DNA of 64,000 nt, from assembly GCF_900111645.1 (NCBI RefSeq), contig NZ_FOHQ01000001.1, forward strand, positions 381,468 to 445,467, given 5' to 3'. Of the stretch, positions 5,526-14,904 are shown in pieces. The position numbers and the translations under genes are program-made. Within the stretch, counting starts at the first letter, position 1; the number at the start of each line of letters is the position of its first letter. The notes beneath the pieces are model-generated. The model searched no databases, was not told where the DNA came from, and was given only the letters and a program-made list of their open reading frames with translations. The DNA is from Methanococcoides vulcani (lineage in GTDB: Archaea; Halobacteriota; Methanosarcinia; Methanosarcinales; Methanosarcinaceae).

Positions 5526-6587
5526 TTAGCAGATCCTTGGTATCAGATCACCTGTAGGTATATCCACGTACCTCATACTTCCAATTATTGTTTTCATCAA
5601 GACTTTACCTGAATGACCGTCTGTTGCTTCACCTATGATAGCAGCATCTCTACCATACTTATGGTTACGAATTATTGATAGCGCTTCCTCTGCATGTTCA
5701 GCCTTGACACAAATGATCGCTTTACCCTCATTTGCTACTTCAAGAGGGTCGATACCAAGCATTTCACAGGCAGATGAGACTGATTCTTTTATAGGTAAAT
5801 CCCTTTGATGAATGATAATTCCTGTTCCGCTTTTTTGTGCCATTTCGTTTAGTGCACCAGCAAGTCCACCTCGGGTAGGGTCTTTCATAGCTGATATGGC
5901 AGGTTTGCCTTCGACATTTCGTATTGGAATAACTGCTCTTATCATATTCCATAAAGGTGCTACATCAGATACCAGATCCGTACTAAAATCGAATCCTTCT
6001 CTATGAGCCAGAAGTGATATCCCATGGTCACCTATGGTACCTGTAAGGATTATCTTGTCACCTGGGCACAATCCAGAGTCGCGGATCACATCACCCGCAA
6101 TGCCGATACCTGTAGTATTGATTATAATTGAATCAAGTCCGTTTCTCTCGACCGTTTTTGTATCACCTGCTATGATGGGGACACCAACCTCTTCTGCAGC
6201 TGCATTCATGGACTTTATTATTTTCTCAAAAGACTCAAGCTCAAATCCCTCCGGCACCACTATTGCACATGTAAGAGCAAGAGGAGCAGCTCCCATTACT
6301 GCAAGGTCATTAACAGTACCTGAAACAGCAAGCCTGCCAATGTTGGAATCCGGAAAAAAAGGTGGTTTAATGACGTGACTGTCGGTGGTGATAACGATTT
6401 CATCACATTTTTTGCTGCCATCCATAGTATTTGCGATGTTTATTGTTGCACCATCATCGAGATCATCAAGTCCCACAGGTCCTGCAGATTTGTTAGTTAT
6501 ATTGTTGAGGATCAGATCACGTATCAATGCTTGCATCGGCTCTCCTCCAGCTCCGTGTTCCATCCTTATGACTTTATCTTTTGACAT
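5526..6587 (-). CDS. hypE: HypE, carbamoyl dehydratase for hydrogenase cyanide ligands
   Basis: A 353-residue PurM/AIR-synthase-like enzyme. With HypF it converts an S-carbamoyl on its C-terminal cysteine to thiocyanate, which supplies the CN ligands of the [NiFe] site. The N-terminal MEHGAGGEPM motif and the invariant C-terminal PRIC with the acceptor cysteine as the last residue are both present, as are the nucleotide-site stretches AGDTKTVE and DPTRGGLAGALNEMA. An ATG 24 bases upstream is also in frame, but MSKDKVIRMEHG at 6587 is the usual start and is preceded by GGTAGTGAG. It is the last gene of the hypCDABE operon, 29 bases after hypB. Confidence 0.95.
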   Translation of the reverse strand: MSKDKVIRMEHGAGGEPMQALIRDLILNNITNKSAGPVGLDDLDDGATINIANTMDGSKKCDEIVITTDSHVIKPPFFPDSNIGRLAVSGTVNDLAVMGAAPLALTCAIVVPEGFELESFEKIIKSMNAAAEEVGVPIIAGDTKTVERNGLDSIIINTTGIGIAGDVIRDSGLCPGDKIILTGTIGDHGISLLAHREGFDFSTDLVSDVAPLWNMIRAVIPIRNVEGKPAISAMKDPTRGGLAGALNEMAQKSGTGIIIHQRDLPIKESVSSACEMLGIDPLEVANEGKAIICVKAEHAEEALSIIRNHKYGRDAAIIGEATDGHSGKVLMKTIIGSMRYVDIPTGDLIPRIC

Positions 6588-6616
6588 GATTCTCACTACC
6601 AGAAATAACAATATAT

Positions 6617-7270
6617 TTATTCAAGATGCGATTCGATGTACTCTATCCATCTATCAATGCTTATCGCATCATTTTTAGAAGTTAGCAGTACGGGTATTGA
6701 TGGATTTAACTGATTTATGTCACCTCTCATTTTTGAAGGATCGGCAGACACAGCTTCACTGATGTCCACTTTATTCACGATGGCAAGGTCAGAGGTCCTG
6801 AATATCATTGGATGCTTCAAAACAGTATCTTCCCCCTCACTTACACTTACAATTACAACACGTACGTGTTCACCAAGTTTATAGTCCACAGGACAAATGA
6901 GATTCCCTACGTTTTCAATGAACAAGATATCAATATCTTTAAGATCTATATTTGCTAATGATCTTTCGATAAGTTTTGCATCCAGATGACATTCACGTCC
7001 GGTGTTTGCAGCTACAGTTTTCACACCAAGTTTTTCAAAACGGGATGCATCCATCTGTGCCACAACATCACCTGCAATAACCGCTATTCTGTACCGCTCT
7101 TTGAGTGCATTGATAGCCTCTTCAATAAGCGTTGTTTTCCCGGAACCTATGGCTCCCATGATATTCATAGTAAAAATTCCGTGTTTAACTAAAAGCTTCC
7201 TGTTGCTATATGCAAGTTCATTATTGGCTTTTAGAACATCTTTGTTGACGTTTATTACGTGCATAAGCAT
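6617..7270 (-). CDS. hypB: HypB, GTPase for nickel insertion into hydrogenase
   Basis: A 217-residue SIMIBI-class GTPase that works with HypA to deliver nickel to the hydrogenase large subunit. The P-loop GAIGSGKTT is at residues 39-47. Also present are ENVGNLICPVDYKLGE, which holds the metal-site cysteine at the dimer interface, and the base-recognition NKVD. The His-rich N-terminal extension of some bacterial HypB proteins is absent, as is usual in archaea. The start at 7270 has AAAGGGG eight bases upstream; ATG 7264 is the alternative. It lies 21 bases after hypA. Confidence 0.95.
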   Translation of the reverse strand: MLMHVINVNKDVLKANNELAYSNRKLLVKHGIFTMNIMGAIGSGKTTLIEEAINALKERYRIAVIAGDVVAQMDASRFEKLGVKTVAANTGRECHLDAKLIERSLANIDLKDIDILFIENVGNLICPVDYKLGEHVRVVIVSVSEGEDTVLKHPMIFRTSDLAIVNKVDISEAVSADPSKMRGDINQLNPSIPVLLTSKNDAISIDRWIEYIESHLE

Positions 7271-7291: not shown

Positions 7292-7675
7292 TCATATTTC
7301 TATATCTATCGTATGAATAATGAGATCATTACCACCGACCAGCTGAAGCAACTTGCCGCATACAGGACAGGCAAGTCTTGTATATTCATAAAGGGGTGGA
7401 TAATCTTTACAACGAGCGTTATCTGAAATTTCGGCATCTCCCCGGTATCCGCATTCACACTCCCCACATGGTGAAATGAAATTCACATTGATCTTTGCAC
7501 CTTCGGCAATACTATCTTGAGATAAAACATCAAAGCAGAATAATAGCTGGTCCGGATTCACATGTGTAAGCCTGCCTATTTCCAGTGTTATGGAATTTAC
7601 TGCCAATGCTTTATTTGTATGTGCTATGGAAATAACATTTTCAAATATCTCACAAGCAAGTGAATATTCATGCAT
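7292..7675 (-). CDS. hypA: HypA, nickel metallochaperone
   Basis: A 127-residue protein with the nickel-binding N-terminal MHE motif (His2) and a zinc domain: C70, C73 and C75 on one side, CPVC (C103, C106) on the other. It brings nickel to HypB and the hydrogenase large subunit. The start is one base after the hypD stop, and AAAGGA inside the end of hypD serves as its ribosome binding site, so the two genes are translationally coupled. Confidence 0.95.
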   Translation of the reverse strand: MHEYSLACEIFENVISIAHTNKALAVNSITLEIGRLTHVNPDQLLFCFDVLSQDSIAEGAKINVNFISPCGECECGYRGDAEISDNARCKDYPPLYEYTRLACPVCGKLLQLVGGNDLIIHTIDIEI

Positions 7676-7676
7676 A

Positions 7677-8765
7677 TTATATTCCTTTATTATGTGTATA
7701 TTTGTACCAGTTATAGCATGTGCCTTCCAGGCTTACCATGCAGGGTCCGACTGGATTTTTTGGCGAGCATCTTTTGCCAAAGAGTGGACATTGAGCAGGT
7801 TGGGCACGGGCTGTTAATATTTCAGCACATATACAGCCCTCCCACATCTCGTTTTGATTATTGTCAATATCTGATACTTTTTTCTCATGCTGAGCTTTTT
7901 CGTATATATCGGCATAAACATTCACAGCATCGAATTGCTCAAACTCTTTTTTTAAAGCAAGGCCGGATTTTTCGATCATGCCAATTCCTCGCCATTTGCT
8001 ATCGATCTTTTTAAAGACCAGATACATCATTTCCTGAGCCTTGAGATTGCCCTCAACATTCACACAGCGTGAATATGCGTTTTCCACACAAGACCTGCCG
8101 GATTCGATCTGGTTCTGAACCATGGCTATACCGAGTAGAACATCTAGAACTTCAAACCCTGTTACAACTATTGGAAACCCCCTTTCTGAAACGGAATTGT
8201 ATGGATATGTGCCAATAATTGTTGACACATGCCCTGGTGCCAGAAATCCGTCCACAATGGTATCTTCTGTGAGGATTTCCATTGCAGGAGGCATAAGTTT
8301 ATGGGATGTTAACATGCTGAAGTTTTCAGGAACTTCCCTCAATAATGCAGCAGCATTGGCAGGTGCAGTAGTTTCAAATCCAATTCCAAAAAATACAATA
8401 TCCAGGGTCGGATTATCTTTTGCGATCTTTACAGCATCATCGATACTGTAGACCATACGAATATCATATCCATCCGATCTAGCATCAAATAAACTTCCCC
8501 TAGTGCCCGGGACCCTCATCATATCTCCAAAGGATGCTATCACCTTTCCGGATTTTGCTAATGAAATTGCAAAATCGATGTCCTCTGCAGGCGTTACACA
8601 AACAGGACATCCAGGGCCGCTTAACAACTGAACATCTTTAGAAATTATATCGCGTATTGCATATTTTGATATTGTTCTTTCATGGGTGCCACATACATGC
8701 ATTATTCGAATAGGGGCTGCATGTTCATTAATTCTTGATATAAGCTTTTGTTCAATATTTTCCAT
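7677..8765 (-). CDS. hypD: HypD, Fe(CN)2CO assembly scaffold
   Basis: A 362-residue Fe-S scaffold protein on which the iron, two cyanides and CO of the [NiFe] site are assembled with HypC. The three signature regions are visible: CGTHE at residues 25-29, GPGCPVC with C53 and C56, and the C-terminal Cys-rich region that binds the [4Fe-4S] cluster (CPLFGKRC, then NPVGPCMVSLEGTC). The length is normal. It starts four bases after the hypC stop and touches hypA, in the middle of a tight operon. Confidence 0.97.
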   Translation of the reverse strand: MENIEQKLISRINEHAAPIRIMHVCGTHERTISKYAIRDIISKDVQLLSGPGCPVCVTPAEDIDFAISLAKSGKVIASFGDMMRVPGTRGSLFDARSDGYDIRMVYSIDDAVKIAKDNPTLDIVFFGIGFETTAPANAAALLREVPENFSMLTSHKLMPPAMEILTEDTIVDGFLAPGHVSTIIGTYPYNSVSERGFPIVVTGFEVLDVLLGIAMVQNQIESGRSCVENAYSRCVNVEGNLKAQEMMYLVFKKIDSKWRGIGMIEKSGLALKKEFEQFDAVNVYADIYEKAQHEKKVSDIDNNQNEMWEGCICAEILTARAQPAQCPLFGKRCSPKNPVGPCMVSLEGTCYNWYKYTHNKGI

Positions 8766-8769
8766 TATA

Positions 8770-9000
8770 TCAACTGGGGTCCATCAAATCTCTTAGTAAC
8801 TTAAGTATTTCTTCGCTTTCTTCATCAGAGATCAATGAGATAGCGTACCCGACATGAACAAGTGCATACTTGCCTATAAGCGATCTATCAGCCCCTCCTA
8901 TAAGATCCAGGTTGACCTTTCTCTTTATACCCCCGATATCCACAGTAGCCGTATTTTCATTCAGGATTGAAATTATTTTCCCAGGAATGGCTATGCACAT
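8770..9000 (-). CDS. hypC: HypC, hydrogenase assembly chaperone
   Basis: A 76-residue chaperone that carries the Fe(CN)2CO unit with HypD and binds the immature large subunit. It must begin Met-Cys, and MCIAIPGK is found exactly at 9000. Cys2 and His49 (ALVHVG) are the conserved ligands. An upstream in-frame ATG at 9054 would add 18 residues and bury the essential Cys2, so it is rejected. There is no ribosome binding site, and a TATA-like TTAAATAC lies about 27 bases upstream, so the transcript may be leaderless. First gene of hypCDABE. Confidence 0.95.
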   Translation of the reverse strand: MCIAIPGKIISILNENTATVDIGGIKRKVNLDLIGGADRSLIGKYALVHVGYAISLISDEESEEILKLLRDLMDPS

Positions 9001-9174
9001 ACTATAAAAGAGGGATTTTTTTGTATTTAATGTATGTTGTCTGCTTCTAATCATGTGGGTCGATATTTATATCTGGAAGCAAAATAACTACAATTATGGG
9101 ATGGGTTTTATCGATTAATTTTATGGGAGACTATCAGGATCCATTTTCACAATCATTCAAACTGAGATGGTCAT
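9001..9174. promoter_or_regulatory. Divergent promoter region, hyp operon / hydrogenase operon
   Basis: For the minus-strand hyp operon, CATTAAATACAA (9032-9021) would put transcription start at about the hypC ATG. For the plus-strand hydrogenase operon the best TATA box is TATTTATAT at 9064-9072, giving a leader of roughly 80 bases to TTG 9175. That leader contains a 35-codon open frame (ATG 9096 to TAA 9203) that overlaps the hydrogenase start; I cannot say whether it is translated. The shared region suggests co-regulation of enzyme and maturation genes. Confidence 0.55.
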
Positions 9175-10236
9175 TTGATTTCAGGAAATACAAATTCAAG
9201 TAATAGTGTCAAAGATTTTGATTTTCTCAGGATGGACTGGCACAAGTTCCTTGAGGCTACAAGATCAACCGGGGTGTTCGATCTTCTGGAGTCCTACAAG
9301 AAAGATACACTGTAGGCTCATGACTTTCCGAAGACCCGGGTCTTCTGGATCCAGGGTGCCCAATGTACAGGATGTTCTGAATCTTTATTGAATGCTGCCA
9401 ATCCGGCGATCATTAAAGCATTTGAAATACTCAACATCGATCTGGAATGTCACGAAGCATTCCTTGCACAGCAAGGTCTATTTGTCGATGGGGAATCTGT
9501 CAACACATCAGAACTTAATTCAGAGATCTTGATCGATGAGATAAGTGAAAAGGGCGACTATATTCTGGTTGTTGAGGGGGCAATTGCAAACGGTCCTGAA
9601 GGTTCGGGAAGATATTGCATGGCTGGAGGCTGTACCTGCAAGGAAATGTTCAAAAAAGCAGCTCAAAATGCTAATTTGATAATAGCTGTAGGCACGTGCG
9701 CTGCATACGGCGGTATTAACTCAGCCAGTAGCGATATAGTTGATCTGCTGGACTTCAGGGGTGTTGCTTTTACGAAGAAAGATCCATCTAAAGGAATGCT
9801 AAAGGTTCTTGGGATAGATAAACCTGTGATCAATATTCCAGGCTGTCCGGCCCATCCTGACTGGATAATATTTACATTAAGTGCATTGATATCCGGTAAT
9901 ATCAAGGTACCAGAAGATCTGCCTGAAGTACTGGATGAATTTGGCAGGCCAAAGGTGTTCTATCCGCCAAATTATACAGTTCATAAAGACTGCCCTCGTT
10001 ATGTATTTTTCAAAAAAGGGGAATTTGACAGTCATTTGGGGGGAGATAAATGCCTGTTGAAACTAGGCTGCAGGGCTCCATCTGCACATGCTGATTGCAC
10101 ACTGCGTAAATGGAATGACGGACATAGTTATTGTGTTCAGGCGGGTTCTCCATGTATTGCATGTATAGAACCGGATTTTCCTGACAACGCAAGACCTCTG
10201 TATTCAATTAGTATAAAAAAGAAAGAGGAGGATTGA
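9175..10236 (+). CDS. [NiFe] hydrogenase small subunit (Vht/Vho-like) with in-frame TAG codon
   Basis: This subunit carries the Fe-S clusters that take electrons from the [NiFe] site. Reading through TAG at 9313-9315 (residue 47) gives 353 residues. The motifs after it are CTGCSE (proximal cluster), GTCAAYGG, PGCPAHPDW, VHKDCPR, and a run of Cys ending CVQAGSPCIACIEPDFPD. All cluster ligands appear present. No ATG, GTG or TTG lies between the TAG and TTG 9388, which is already past CTGC, so an active protein needs UAG decoded. The N-terminus aligns with Vht-type leaders (FLRMDWHKFLEA), but the twin-arginine pair is replaced by WH, the hydrophobic core is gone and the C-terminal anchor is missing. 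The TTG start is chosen by alignment. The large subunit follows. Confidence 0.85.
9313..9315 (+). other. In-frame TAG, candidate pyrrolysine codon 47 of the hydrogenase small subunit
   Basis: The codon context is ACA CTG TAG GCT CAT. The frame is open for 46 codons before it and 306 after it, and conserved hydrogenase sequence resumes 13 codons downstream. It sits in the former signal-peptide region, just before the mature domain. Confidence 0.7.
9328..9348 (+). other. Stem-loop 12 bases downstream of the hydrogenase TAG
   Basis: GAAGACCCGGGTCTTC at 9330-9345 is a perfect 16-base palindrome, and CC / GG flank it with one unpaired T. A second short palindrome, CTGGATCCAG (9345-9354), abuts it. 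The position after an in-frame UAG recalls the PYLIS-type structures proposed for methylamine methyltransferase mRNAs. A role here is inference only. Confidence 0.45.
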
Positions 10237-10238
10237 AA

Positions 10239-12026
10239 ATGGTTCGCGTAACAGTTGATCCCCTTACAAGAGTCGTAGGACCCTTAAGGTTGGATACTGA
10301 GGTGAATGAAGAAGGTATTATAACGCAAGCCAGAAGTTCCAATATGATCTTTAGGGGGTTTGAACGTATATTTCAAAATCAGGACCCAAGAGATTCCGTA
10401 CTACTCTCTCAGAGGATCTGTGGCGTATGCCCGGTAGCACACTCTATGGCTTCAGTTAATGCACTTGACGAGTTATTTGGTGTTGCGCAGTCTGTTCCAA
10501 AAGATGCACTTGTTTCAAGAAATATTAATCAGGGCTTGAATACGATTGCAAACCATATGCTTCATGTCAATATTCTATGGGGTCCAGACCTTGCAAATCC
10601 TGCATACGGTAATGTATTATCAACTTTTGGTGATATGGGAGGTGCGATATGGAAAGAATTGCTGGGAAGATTTGCACCAATCAGCTATAAAATCGATGGC
10701 GCAGCTATTCCGCCGGGGAGCTCATATGTTGATGTCATTCCGGTGAAGAAAAAAATACATGACGCCTGTGCTGTAATTGGTGGTAAAATGCCCCATCAGA
10801 CTGTAACCTATCCTGGGGGAGTTACAAACAAGCCAACAGCTTCAGACATTAATAGCCTGTCATCGATCATATCAGATGTCATCAATTTCTTTAATAGCCA
10901 TACCATAGGCGTACCTTTTGAGTTTTGGGTTGAGAATACTTACATGGCAACTTCGCCAAAGAAGGCAGTAAACTTCTTTATTGAACATCTTAATGAAATA
11001 ACTGAAAAGTCGCTTAAGACAAATGATCTTTCACGTTCAAGCGGATGGGGGGATGTAGAGCTCTATGCCGCGTTTGGTTCAGAACTGATTGGTGAAAGAT
11101 TGCTAGGACTTCCTATTAGTCTCAAACACGATAAAATGGGCGGCTACCGTGATCTTTCAAAAATAGGATTCCTTTCATATGGTGGATTCTATAATGTGGA
11201 GCATGAAGGTTATGATCCAACAAGCCCTTCTGGTGATCGCTTCCAGACCTCTGGTTTTATGAGCAGTTCATTTGAGTATCATAAATTCGATGCAAATAAG
11301 GTCACAGAAAGCGTTAAACATGCTTTCTATAAAGGTGATGATAGTAACAAGCACCCATACGATGGAGTTACCGAACCTTACAGTGATCCCAATTTGATCA
11401 ATTATCAGGATTCACCTGATGATAAATATACATGGTCTAAAGCTCCACGTTATGGTGGTATCCCATGTGAAGTGGGTCCACTATCTCGTTTACTTATAAT
11501 GAAAGAGCCACTGGTTATGGGTCTTGTAAACATGTTCCAGGACAATGGATATTCTCCTTTTAACAGTTTTACCAGAATGATAGCACGCATGCAGGAAATG
11601 TTTGTTATTACTAATGAACTGATCAAGTGGATCAAAATAGACCTTGATCCAAATGGAAAATTCCATGTGGATATTGATCTGTCAATGGCTAAGGATTCCA
11701 GAGGAATTGGTCTTTGGGAAGCTCCTCGCGGTGCATTGGGACATTGGGTTATAACCGATAGCAATTCTAAAGTTGCCAATTACCAGATAGTTACACCAAG
11801 TTCCTGGAATCTGAGTCCAAGGGATAGTGAAGGAGTGCCAGGTCCTCTTGAACAGGCACTTGTGGGGTCCAGAATATCCGCAGTTGAAAACTGGCTTGGG
11901 GTTGATTTCAGTAATCCGACTGGTATTTTACATGTGGGAAGGTCTTATGATCCCTGTGTTACATGTGCTGTTCACACCATAGATCTAACAGGGAAAAATT
12001 CCCCTGGTACAATAAGACTTGTGTAA
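10239..12026 (+). CDS. [NiFe] hydrogenase large subunit (Vht/Vho-like)
   Basis: A 595-residue catalytic subunit. The L1 motif RICGVCPVAH gives C61, C64 and H68, and the L2 motif DPCVTCAVH gives C573, C576 and H579, so all four nickel-ligand cysteines are intact. A 16-residue tail (TIDLTGKNSPGTIRLV) after H579 is the peptide normally removed by the maturation protease, which is encoded next door. The sequence resembles methanophenazine-reducing hydrogenases of Methanosarcina. It starts two bases after the small-subunit stop, with GAGGAGGATTGA as ribosome binding site. No cytochrome b gene follows, unlike vht/vho operons. Intact catalytic residues argue against a decaying gene. Confidence 0.93.
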   Translation: MVRVTVDPLTRVVGPLRLDTEVNEEGIITQARSSNMIFRGFERIFQNQDPRDSVLLSQRICGVCPVAHSMASVNALDELFGVAQSVPKDALVSRNINQGLNTIANHMLHVNILWGPDLANPAYGNVLSTFGDMGGAIWKELLGRFAPISYKIDGAAIPPGSSYVDVIPVKKKIHDACAVIGGKMPHQTVTYPGGVTNKPTASDINSLSSIISDVINFFNSHTIGVPFEFWVENTYMATSPKKAVNFFIEHLNEITEKSLKTNDLSRSSGWGDVELYAAFGSELIGERLLGLPISLKHDKMGGYRDLSKIGFLSYGGFYNVEHEGYDPTSPSGDRFQTSGFMSSSFEYHKFDANKVTESVKHAFYKGDDSNKHPYDGVTEPYSDPNLINYQDSPDDKYTWSKAPRYGGIPCEVGPLSRLLIMKEPLVMGLVNMFQDNGYSPFNSFTRMIARMQEMFVITNELIKWIKIDLDPNGKFHVDIDLSMAKDSRGIGLWEAPRGALGHWVITDSNSKVANYQIVTPSSWNLSPRDSEGVPGPLEQALVGSRISAVENWLGVDFSNPTGILHVGRSYDPCVTCAVHTIDLTGKNSPGTIRLV

Positions 12027-12073: not shown

Positions 12074-12568
12074 ATGCCTGAATTAAATCCATCTGTTCGC
12101 ATAATCGGATGTGGAAATACTTTAATGGGGGACGATGCTGTTGGCGTAAGGATTGTCGAGGCTCTCAAAAAAATGGAACTTGAACCTTTGGAGGGTATTG
12201 ATATTCTGGATGCTGGTGTATGTGGACTGGATATCCTGAACCTGCTGGAAGGTGTTGATAAGGTCATTATTGTTGATTCAATAATTGGTAATACGAAAAA
12301 AGGTTCAATTCTTCGTTTTGAGGGTGAGGATCTTTTGAATAAAGACTATGAACATGGTGGAATATTTTCCGCTCATGATATATGTATATCTGATGTCTTG
12401 GTCATTGGAAAACATGTACAGGACCTTCCTGAGATCCTCGTTTTTGGGATAGAGATTGGTGGCATAAAGGAAGAGCTATCAATGGATCTTAGTCTGGAGA
12501 CTCTTGCTGCAGTGGATAGGGTAATTCCGTATATTATTGAGGAAATAGTCGGAACATCTCAAGACTAA
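12074..12568 (+). CDS. Hydrogenase maturation endopeptidase (HyaD/HycI family, VhtD-like)
   Basis: A 164-residue protease that clips the C-terminal tail of the nickel-loaded large subunit. The family motif GCGNTLMGDDAVGVR is at residues 12-26 and carries a nickel-sensing acid (D21). The other expected metal ligands are D68 (VIIVDSI) and H101 (SAHDIC). It lies 47 bases after the large subunit and starts behind GGGGACC. Its target is very probably that subunit. Confidence 0.92.
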   Translation: MPELNPSVRIIGCGNTLMGDDAVGVRIVEALKKMELEPLEGIDILDAGVCGLDILNLLEGVDKVIIVDSIIGNTKKGSILRFEGEDLLNKDYEHGGIFSAHDICISDVLVIGKHVQDLPEILVFGIEIGGIKEELSMDLSLETLAAVDRVIPYIIEEIVGTSQD

Positions 12569-12627: not shown

Positions 12628-14904
12628 ATGCAAATTCAATGCAGAATGATCAATGTTAGCGGGGTAGTACAGGGTGTTGGCTTTCGCCCATTCATATATC
12701 ATATTGCGATAGAGAATGGACTCTGCGGTTACGTGAAAAATGCAGGGAATGACGTAGAAATAGTCACAGAAGGGGAAAAAGAAGATATCGACCGATTTCT
12801 CCACGACCTTTATTTTAAAAAGCCACCGCTATCACTTATCGATCAAATCAAAACAAACGTTTTTCGTGTATCAGGCTTTTCCGATTTCTCGATACTTACC
12901 AGTGAACAGGATGAAACTGCCAACTCCATTATCCCACCTGACAGTGCAATCTGTTCCGATTGCCTTCGGGACATGTACGATAGCAAAGACAGGCACTATC
13001 ATTACCCTTTTACATCCTGTACGAACTGTGGTCCGAGATATTCTCTGGTAAGCTCTCTTCCTTTTGATCGGGAAAATACTAGTATGCTTGAATTCCCGAT
13101 GTGCTCGGAATGCAGCCTTGACTACAAAATGTCTTCTGATAAAAGATTTCATGCACAGACCATGTGTTGTCCAAATTGTGGCCCTGTCCTTTCACTTACC
13201 AATGGAAACTGTGATGTTCTTGCATCCGGACATGATGCCATTATCAAATGTGCTGAACTCATAGATGGGGAATCAATTGTTGCAGTCAAAGGATATAGTG
13301 GATTCCATCTTGTATGTAATGCTACTTCAGACAGAGCGACCCTAAAACTCAGGAATGCCCTTAACCGTCCTGCACAGCCTTTTGCAGTGATGGCAAAAGA
13401 TGTTGAAACGGTATGTTCTTTTGCCAGTATCAATGCAGATGAAAGTTCCCTATTGCTCAGCAGGCAGCGTCCAATAGTTGTTCTGGACAAGAGTGATGAG
13501 TTTCCTCTATCTGAGCAGATAACTCCGGATCTTCATAATATAGGGGTAATGATACCATATTCAGGTACACACCACCTTCTTTTTGACAATAGTGATGCAG
13601 ATGTTTACGTAATGACATCTGCAAATCTTCCAGGTCTGCCAATGGTGATTGATAATGAGGAAGCATTGTCACATCTTGATAAGATAGCAGATTATTATCT
13701 ACTCCATAACTATGCGATCAAGAATAGGATCGATGACACGGTAATCAGAATCGTTAATGGAAGAATGGCTTTTATAAGGCGCTCACGCGGGTTTGTGCCT
13801 GAGAGGATAGAACTTCCATTTTCAATAGAGCCGGCGATTGGTGTGGGTCCTGAACTAAATACTACTGTAACGATTGCAAAAAAGAACAGTGCATATATTT
13901 CACAATATATTGGGAACACACGGCACTTTGAAACAGATCAGTATCACAAGCAGGTTGTTTTGAATTTAGAACAATTGACAAAAATTACGCCCAGGTTATG
14001 GGGTTGTGACTTGCATCCAGAATTTAATACCACCCGTTTCGCACAGGATATAGGTGGAGAGGGCACGGTTTTCGTGCAACATCATCATGCACACATCGTA
14101 TCGCTTATGGTGGACAACTTTTTGCCAGTTGATTCGAGGATAATCGGAATTGCTCTTGACGGATCAGGTTACGGGGAAAATGGAACCATATGGGGAGGGG
14201 AGGTCCTGGAAGCTACATATTCTGGTTATGAAAGAACTGCCCATCTTATGGAACAACCTATGCCTGGTGGGGATATGGCTGCAACTTATCCGTCACGTAT
14301 GCTTCTGGGAATGCTACATGATGCTCTTGAGCCGAAAGAATTGAGAGAACTACCTCTTTATTTTAAGTATGGTGAATCAGAACGTGACATTGTATTGGAT
14401 CAACTGGAAAAAGGTATAAACCTGGTTAAAACAAGTAGTGCCGCGCGTGTACTTGATAGTGCAGCAGCACTTCTTTGGATCTCACATTATCGCAGTTACC
14501 AGGGTGAGCCCGCAATGAAGTTGGAATCTGTTGCAAAAAAGAGTATTCATAATATAGATTTACCTGTTGTATGTAAACGAGGCGTGCTTGACACCACTAG
14601 TTTACTATATGAACTTTATGAAAGGATTGATACACATGCAGTTTGTGATCTGGCATACTCTATAGAAGATGCACTTGCACGTGGGGTTGCAGAACTTGCC
14701 ATTTCATCTGCCAAAAAACGGAATATTGATGTTATAGGACTTAGTGGGGGAGTTGCATACAATGAACATATAACAGGACGCATCAGTGAAGCTGTTAAAG
14801 ATGCAGGATTTGAATTTATTACACATAAGAAAATTCCCTGTGGCGATGGCGGGGTATCTTTGGGACAAGTGATGGTTGCAGGGGATTCTGAAGGAATTTC
14901 TTGA
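12628..14904 (+). CDS. hypF: HypF, carbamoyltransferase for hydrogenase cyanide ligands
   Basis: A 758-residue enzyme that makes carbamoyl-AMP from carbamoyl phosphate and transfers the carbamoyl group to HypE. Domains in order: acylphosphatase-like (VQGVGFRPF, residues 14-22), two zinc-finger units with four CxxC pairs (C109/C112, C131/C134, C159/C162, C181/C184), a YrdC-like domain (about 200-385), and a Kae1-like domain holding the metal motif HHHAH and ending in SGGVAYNEH. Length and order are standard. It lies outside the hypCDABE operon, downstream of the hydrogenase genes, and completes the maturation set except for general metal supply. Confidence 0.96.
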   Translation: MQIQCRMINVSGVVQGVGFRPFIYHIAIENGLCGYVKNAGNDVEIVTEGEKEDIDRFLHDLYFKKPPLSLIDQIKTNVFRVSGFSDFSILTSEQDETANSIIPPDSAICSDCLRDMYDSKDRHYHYPFTSCTNCGPRYSLVSSLPFDRENTSMLEFPMCSECSLDYKMSSDKRFHAQTMCCPNCGPVLSLTNGNCDVLASGHDAIIKCAELIDGESIVAVKGYSGFHLVCNATSDRATLKLRNALNRPAQPFAVMAKDVETVCSFASINADESSLLLSRQRPIVVLDKSDEFPLSEQITPDLHNIGVMIPYSGTHHLLFDNSDADVYVMTSANLPGLPMVIDNEEALSHLDKIADYYLLHNYAIKNRIDDTVIRIVNGRMAFIRRSRGFVPERIELPFSIEPAIGVGPELNTTVTIAKKNSAYISQYIGNTRHFETDQYHKQVVLNLEQLTKITPRLWGCDLHPEFNTTRFAQDIGGEGTVFVQHHHAHIVSLMVDNFLPVDSRIIGIALDGSGYGENGTIWGGEVLEATYSGYERTAHLMEQPMPGGDMAATYPSRMLLGMLHDALEPKELRELPLYFKYGESERDIVLDQLEKGINLVKTSSAARVLDSAAALLWISHYRSYQGEPAMKLESVAKKSIHNIDLPVVCKRGVLDTTSLLYELYERIDTHAVCDLAYSIEDALARGVAELAISSAKKRNIDVIGLSGGVAYNEHITGRISEAVKDAGFEFITHKKIPCGDGGVSLGQVMVAGDSEGIS

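Follow-up and report, generated by a model that had tools for sequence, protein, structure and literature searches.

The hydrogenase locus and its interrupted small-subunit gene

The window, i.e., the whole stretch of 64,000 nucleotides that was analysed (C5:381468-445467 of genome G000), comes from a member of the genus Methanococcoides, a species represented by one assembly of 2.3 Mb in 15 contigs with a completeness of 99.95%. It contains a gene cluster for a [NiFe] hydrogenase, the components of which were assigned by family-level matches. A VhoG/VhtG-like small subunit (9175..10236, plus strand) is followed on the same strand by the large subunit (10239..12026), whose ATG at 10239 lies two bases past the small-subunit stop at 10234-10236, the hydrogenase maturation protease (12074..12568), and hypF (12628..14904). 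To the left and on the minus strand are hypC (8770..9054), hypD (7677..8765), hypA (7292..7675), hypB (6617..7270), and hypE (5526..6611). The large subunit, the protease, and hypA-F are all whole, as a preliminary description of this DNA had stated, and the gene order around the hydrogenase is identical in M. alaskense.

Translation of 9175-10236 confirmed that the small-subunit frame, which runs from TTG 9175 to the TGA ending at 10236, has a single interruption, an in-frame TAG at codon 47 (9313..9315); with this codon read through, the product has 353 residues. The TTG start is kept in all seven Methanococcoides sequences, and a tentative Shine-Dalgarno-like element, GAGATGGTC, lies upstream of it at 9164..9172, with a similar region in the congeners. 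The alternative ATG at 9232 was ruled out as a general start, because the residues upstream of it are conserved and the homologue from another genus (G015) has Leu at this position. A downstream start that bypasses the TAG was ruled out as well. The CTGC motif, which provides ligands of the proximal Fe-S cluster (codons 64-67; 9364..9375), follows the TAG after 16 codons that include no ATG, GTG, or TTG, the first candidate being TTG 9388, past the motif. The earlier proposal that read-through is needed to keep these ligands is supported.

Codons 1-46 (9175..9312) encode a leader that, by alignment with Tat-bearing homologues, is a derivative of a Tat signal in which the RR motif has become WH. 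The TAG had been placed in the leader region; the alignment refines this to a variable linker close to the former Tat-cleavage junction between the leader and the mature domain, and the position is not conserved. In all but a few cases the best matches to solved structures start at residues 51-56, past the TAG residue. An AlphaFold2 model built from three sequences had a pLDDT of 34 and was left out of the analysis. Elsewhere in the subunit, positions 9610-9645 of the window read GRYCMAGGCTCKE in the host versus GKYFMSGNRSSKE in the congeners, with three Cys where the congeners are Cys-free.

The small subunit is homologous to VhoG/VhtG of Methanosarcinaceae over residues 2-344, including the whole mature domain, with about 50-62% identity and the same cluster cysteines. 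However, those group 1 proteins carry a Tat signal and end in a membrane anchor segment, whereas the host and its six congeners have neither: in all seven, WH stands in place of RR, and a C-terminal hydrophobic segment is absent. Because of these missing elements, we call the protein VhoG-like rather than a standard VhoG, and, judged from its sequence, the host hydrogenase is probably soluble. The same form without Tat motif and hydrophobic anchor, with a similar leader conserved around DWH, occurs in G015, whereas in congener G009 the sole form is the Tat-bearing one (L016). For M. methylutens, VhoA and VhoG were reported to be present and VhoC absent (PMC4239356).

Orthologues and selection on the small subunit

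The preliminary description had proposed a comparison of the codon among orthologues. The six congener orthologues, which share 76-80% identity with the host protein, have GGA, GGA, GGT, GAT, GGA, and GGA at the TAG site, encoding Gly or Asp. Across about 105 homologous places in 112 genomes of the family, TAG was found in the host only and TGA in one other. The hydrogenase gene therefore combines an in-frame TAG with conserved coding sequence downstream and TAG-free orthologues. In contrast to the methylamine methyltransferases, in which pyrrolysine occupies the same site across orthologues, its TAG occurs in one of about 105 homologues and at a variable position.

As there is a single assembly, a sequencing or assembly error at 9313-9315 has to be considered. 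However, three substitutions separate TAG from the congener codons GGA and GGT and two separate it from GAT, without any indel, so that a single base error on a congener-like codon cannot yield it, and other TAG codons in the host genome behave in a like manner. We regard such an error as very improbable.

The core of the small subunit, downstream of the TAG, is under purifying selection. Relative to the congeners, its dN is 0.107-0.124, dS 0.68-1.17, and dN/dS 0.11-0.16, the last being the same as that of the large subunit. The host branch is not accelerated: dN to the outgroup L013 is 0.283 for the host versus 0.297-0.307 for the congeners, and dN to L016 is 0.296 versus 0.320-0.351. Moreover, the host has changes at none of the 71 columns that are invariant in 21 other sequences. 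The earlier argument for selection on function is borne out by these data. Because of the low dN/dS, the lack of acceleration, and the unchanged invariant columns, an old pseudogene is excluded on sequence grounds; a very recent nonsense mutation is compatible with selection that is averaged over the branch.

A recent loss of function would make the TAG a nonsense mutation in an unneeded gene, too young for decay to be visible, and any residual reading of UAG incidental. The hydrogenase does appear to be dispensable in the genus, since the gene is absent from three of the 11 Methanococcoides genomes and a VhoG homologue of another genus (G076:C16:20882-21898) contains a single in-frame TGA; this TGA copy also indicates that broken small-subunit genes arise occasionally in the family. 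However, the rates and invariant columns described above, the lack of any further lesion, and the intact large-subunit and maturation genes all speak against this explanation. Furthermore, as UAG appears to be decoded in the host genome (see below), the TAG would not be a null allele. We therefore consider a recent loss of function unlikely.

UAG decoding in the host genome

The host encodes pylT (anticodon CTA), pylS, pylB, pylC, and pylD in one cluster, i.e., a complete pyl cassette, and one release factor, aRF1, scored above its cut-off. The complete pylTSBCD set makes pyrrolysine the natural decoding of the hydrogenase TAG, which is consistent with the earlier suggestion of pyrrolysine as the decoded residue.

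Stop usage, determined on 795 kb of the host genome, indicates that TAG is rarely a terminator. Open reading frames of at least 150 amino acids on contig C5 end in TGA (254), TAA (212), or TAG (10 of 476), and those within the window in TGA (24), TAA (27), or TAG (0 of 51), whereas TAG makes up 18% of the stop trinucleotides in intergenic DNA. Most of the 10 TAG-ended frames continue in frame, several of them into known or likely pyrrolysine genes; the median extension beyond the terminal stop on C5 is 156 codons for TAG, compared with 21 for TAA and 19 for TGA.

We also compared terminal codons with those of the congener G010, using 2.0 Mb of its genome; this test was made gene by gene, antisense shadow ORFs having swamped plain ORF scans. 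Among 440 orthologues, 185 end in TAA, 234 in TGA, and eight in TAG. The eight comprise MtbB, a CcmF-C-like gene with TAG in both species, pylB, one gene with a TGA six codons on, and four others whose neighbouring stops suggest shadow ORFs or a decayed gene. The pylB gene was ruled out as a case of read-through, as the PylB model ends at residue 368 and the TAG at 371 marks the natural C-terminal end.

TAG codons were found internal to the Pfam domains of MttB, MtbB, a class II ribonucleotide reductase, CobN, CcmF-C, a SepSecS-like enzyme, and an ABC permease. In the ribonucleotide reductase (C5:371722-373818, minus strand), the TAG is codon 258, inside the barrel domain, and three homologues from the genus have Gln there. 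An argument from the essentiality of this reductase was dropped because the host has two class III NrdD genes. Among the other genes, the CcmF-C-like gene (L062:10019-11014, plus strand) has its TAG at codon 181 and, with TAG also in G010, represents a conserved amber codon outside the methyltransferases. A CobN paralogue (L064:11273-15031, minus strand) has TAG at codon 348, three further CobN copies in the genome being TAG-free, and the SepSecS-like gene (L041:16085-17239, minus strand) has TAG at codon 102, where two homologues in G010 have Glu.

On the basis of the few TAG ends, the long TAG extensions, the TAG codons inside Pfam domains, and the Gln in the reductase homologues, UAG in this organism is mostly a sense codon and rarely a stop. 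It is not purely a sense codon, because pylB still ends in TAG. Archaea that read all TAG codons as pyrrolysine were reportedly described by Kivenson et al. in Science in 2025; they resemble the Methanococcoides host in that TAG serves as a sense codon throughout the genome.

Interpretation of the hydrogenase TAG

Taken with the evidence above, it is likely that the gene encodes a working VhoG-like small subunit in which the TAG is a tolerated pyrrolysine, inserted by ordinary UAG decoding and with no special role. From the sequence data we infer the insertion itself, its efficiency, the solubility of the enzyme, and the absence of a special role. In this process, tRNA-Pyl(CUA) and PylS would translate codon 47 as they would other UAG codons, in a genome that appears to have nearly abandoned TAG as a stop. 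The residue would come after the leader with its lost Tat signal and before the mature domain's first beta-strand, and it is presumably tolerated rather than catalytic because this position is a variable linker. Decoding would depend on competition between Pyl-tRNA and the release factor at UAG and, judging from the pyrrolysine literature, would not require a cis element (PMC2933860, PMC8211752, PMC9499178). No PYLIS-like or unusual RNA structure was found downstream of the hydrogenase TAG (z +0.46). Termination at the UAG may give a truncated product alongside the full-length subunit; such a product would lack the cluster ligands, and early termination could also reduce translation of the closely spaced large subunit.

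The latter effect is relevant to the possibility that the UAG is regulatory, i.e., that read-through is set by the supply of pyrrolysine and the hydrogenase, with its coupled large subunit, is made mainly during growth on methylamines. The TAG stands near the beginning of the operon's first gene, two bases separate the small-subunit stop from the large-subunit ATG, and an amber codon introduced into a reporter in M. acetivorans was read through at 20-30% (PMC2933860), all of which would suit such a device. However, the congeners have no TAG, there is no RNA structure downstream, and unrelated host genes show the same pattern. A functional or regulatory pyrrolysine in the hydrogenase is therefore improbable; if it were true, hydrogenase output would follow pyrrolysine supply, and H2 metabolism would consequently be coupled to methylamine growth in this species. 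The proposal in the preliminary description of a special link between the hydrogenase and pyrrolysine or methylamines is conceivable but not backed by the sequence data, as the TAG is unique to this species among those searched, replaces Gly or Asp of the congeners in a variable linker, lacks a downstream structure, and has apparent counterparts in unrelated genes. The codon might also tune translation, as suggested there. Most likely, the hydrogenase TAG reflects the role of UAG as a sense codon across the genome, not a special connection between hydrogen and pyrrolysine.

With its TAG decoded as a tolerated pyrrolysine, a [NiFe] hydrogenase subunit would join the few proteins other than the methylamine methyltransferases that are likely to contain this residue. 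The case also shows that TAG enters ordinary Methanococcoides genes. Standard annotation would label such a gene broken or begin it at TTG 9388, with loss of the cluster-ligand region. The hydrogenase TAG also offers a simple test of the efficiency of UAG decoding in a natural gene that does not encode a methyltransferase.

The closest precedent is Thg1 of Methanosarcina acetivorans, likewise a non-methyltransferase with an in-frame UAG gained in one species only. However, Thg1 is not a metalloenzyme subunit, and its pyrrolysine was proven by protein chemistry, whereas decoding in the hydrogenase is deduced from genomic comparison. Another similar case is the citrate synthase of Methanohalophilus mahii, an otherwise intact gene of central metabolism with one UAG, for which pyrrolysine was proposed in a passage of PMC3017947. 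The hydrogenase case is backed by a comparison of orthologues and of rates, neither of which was given in that passage.
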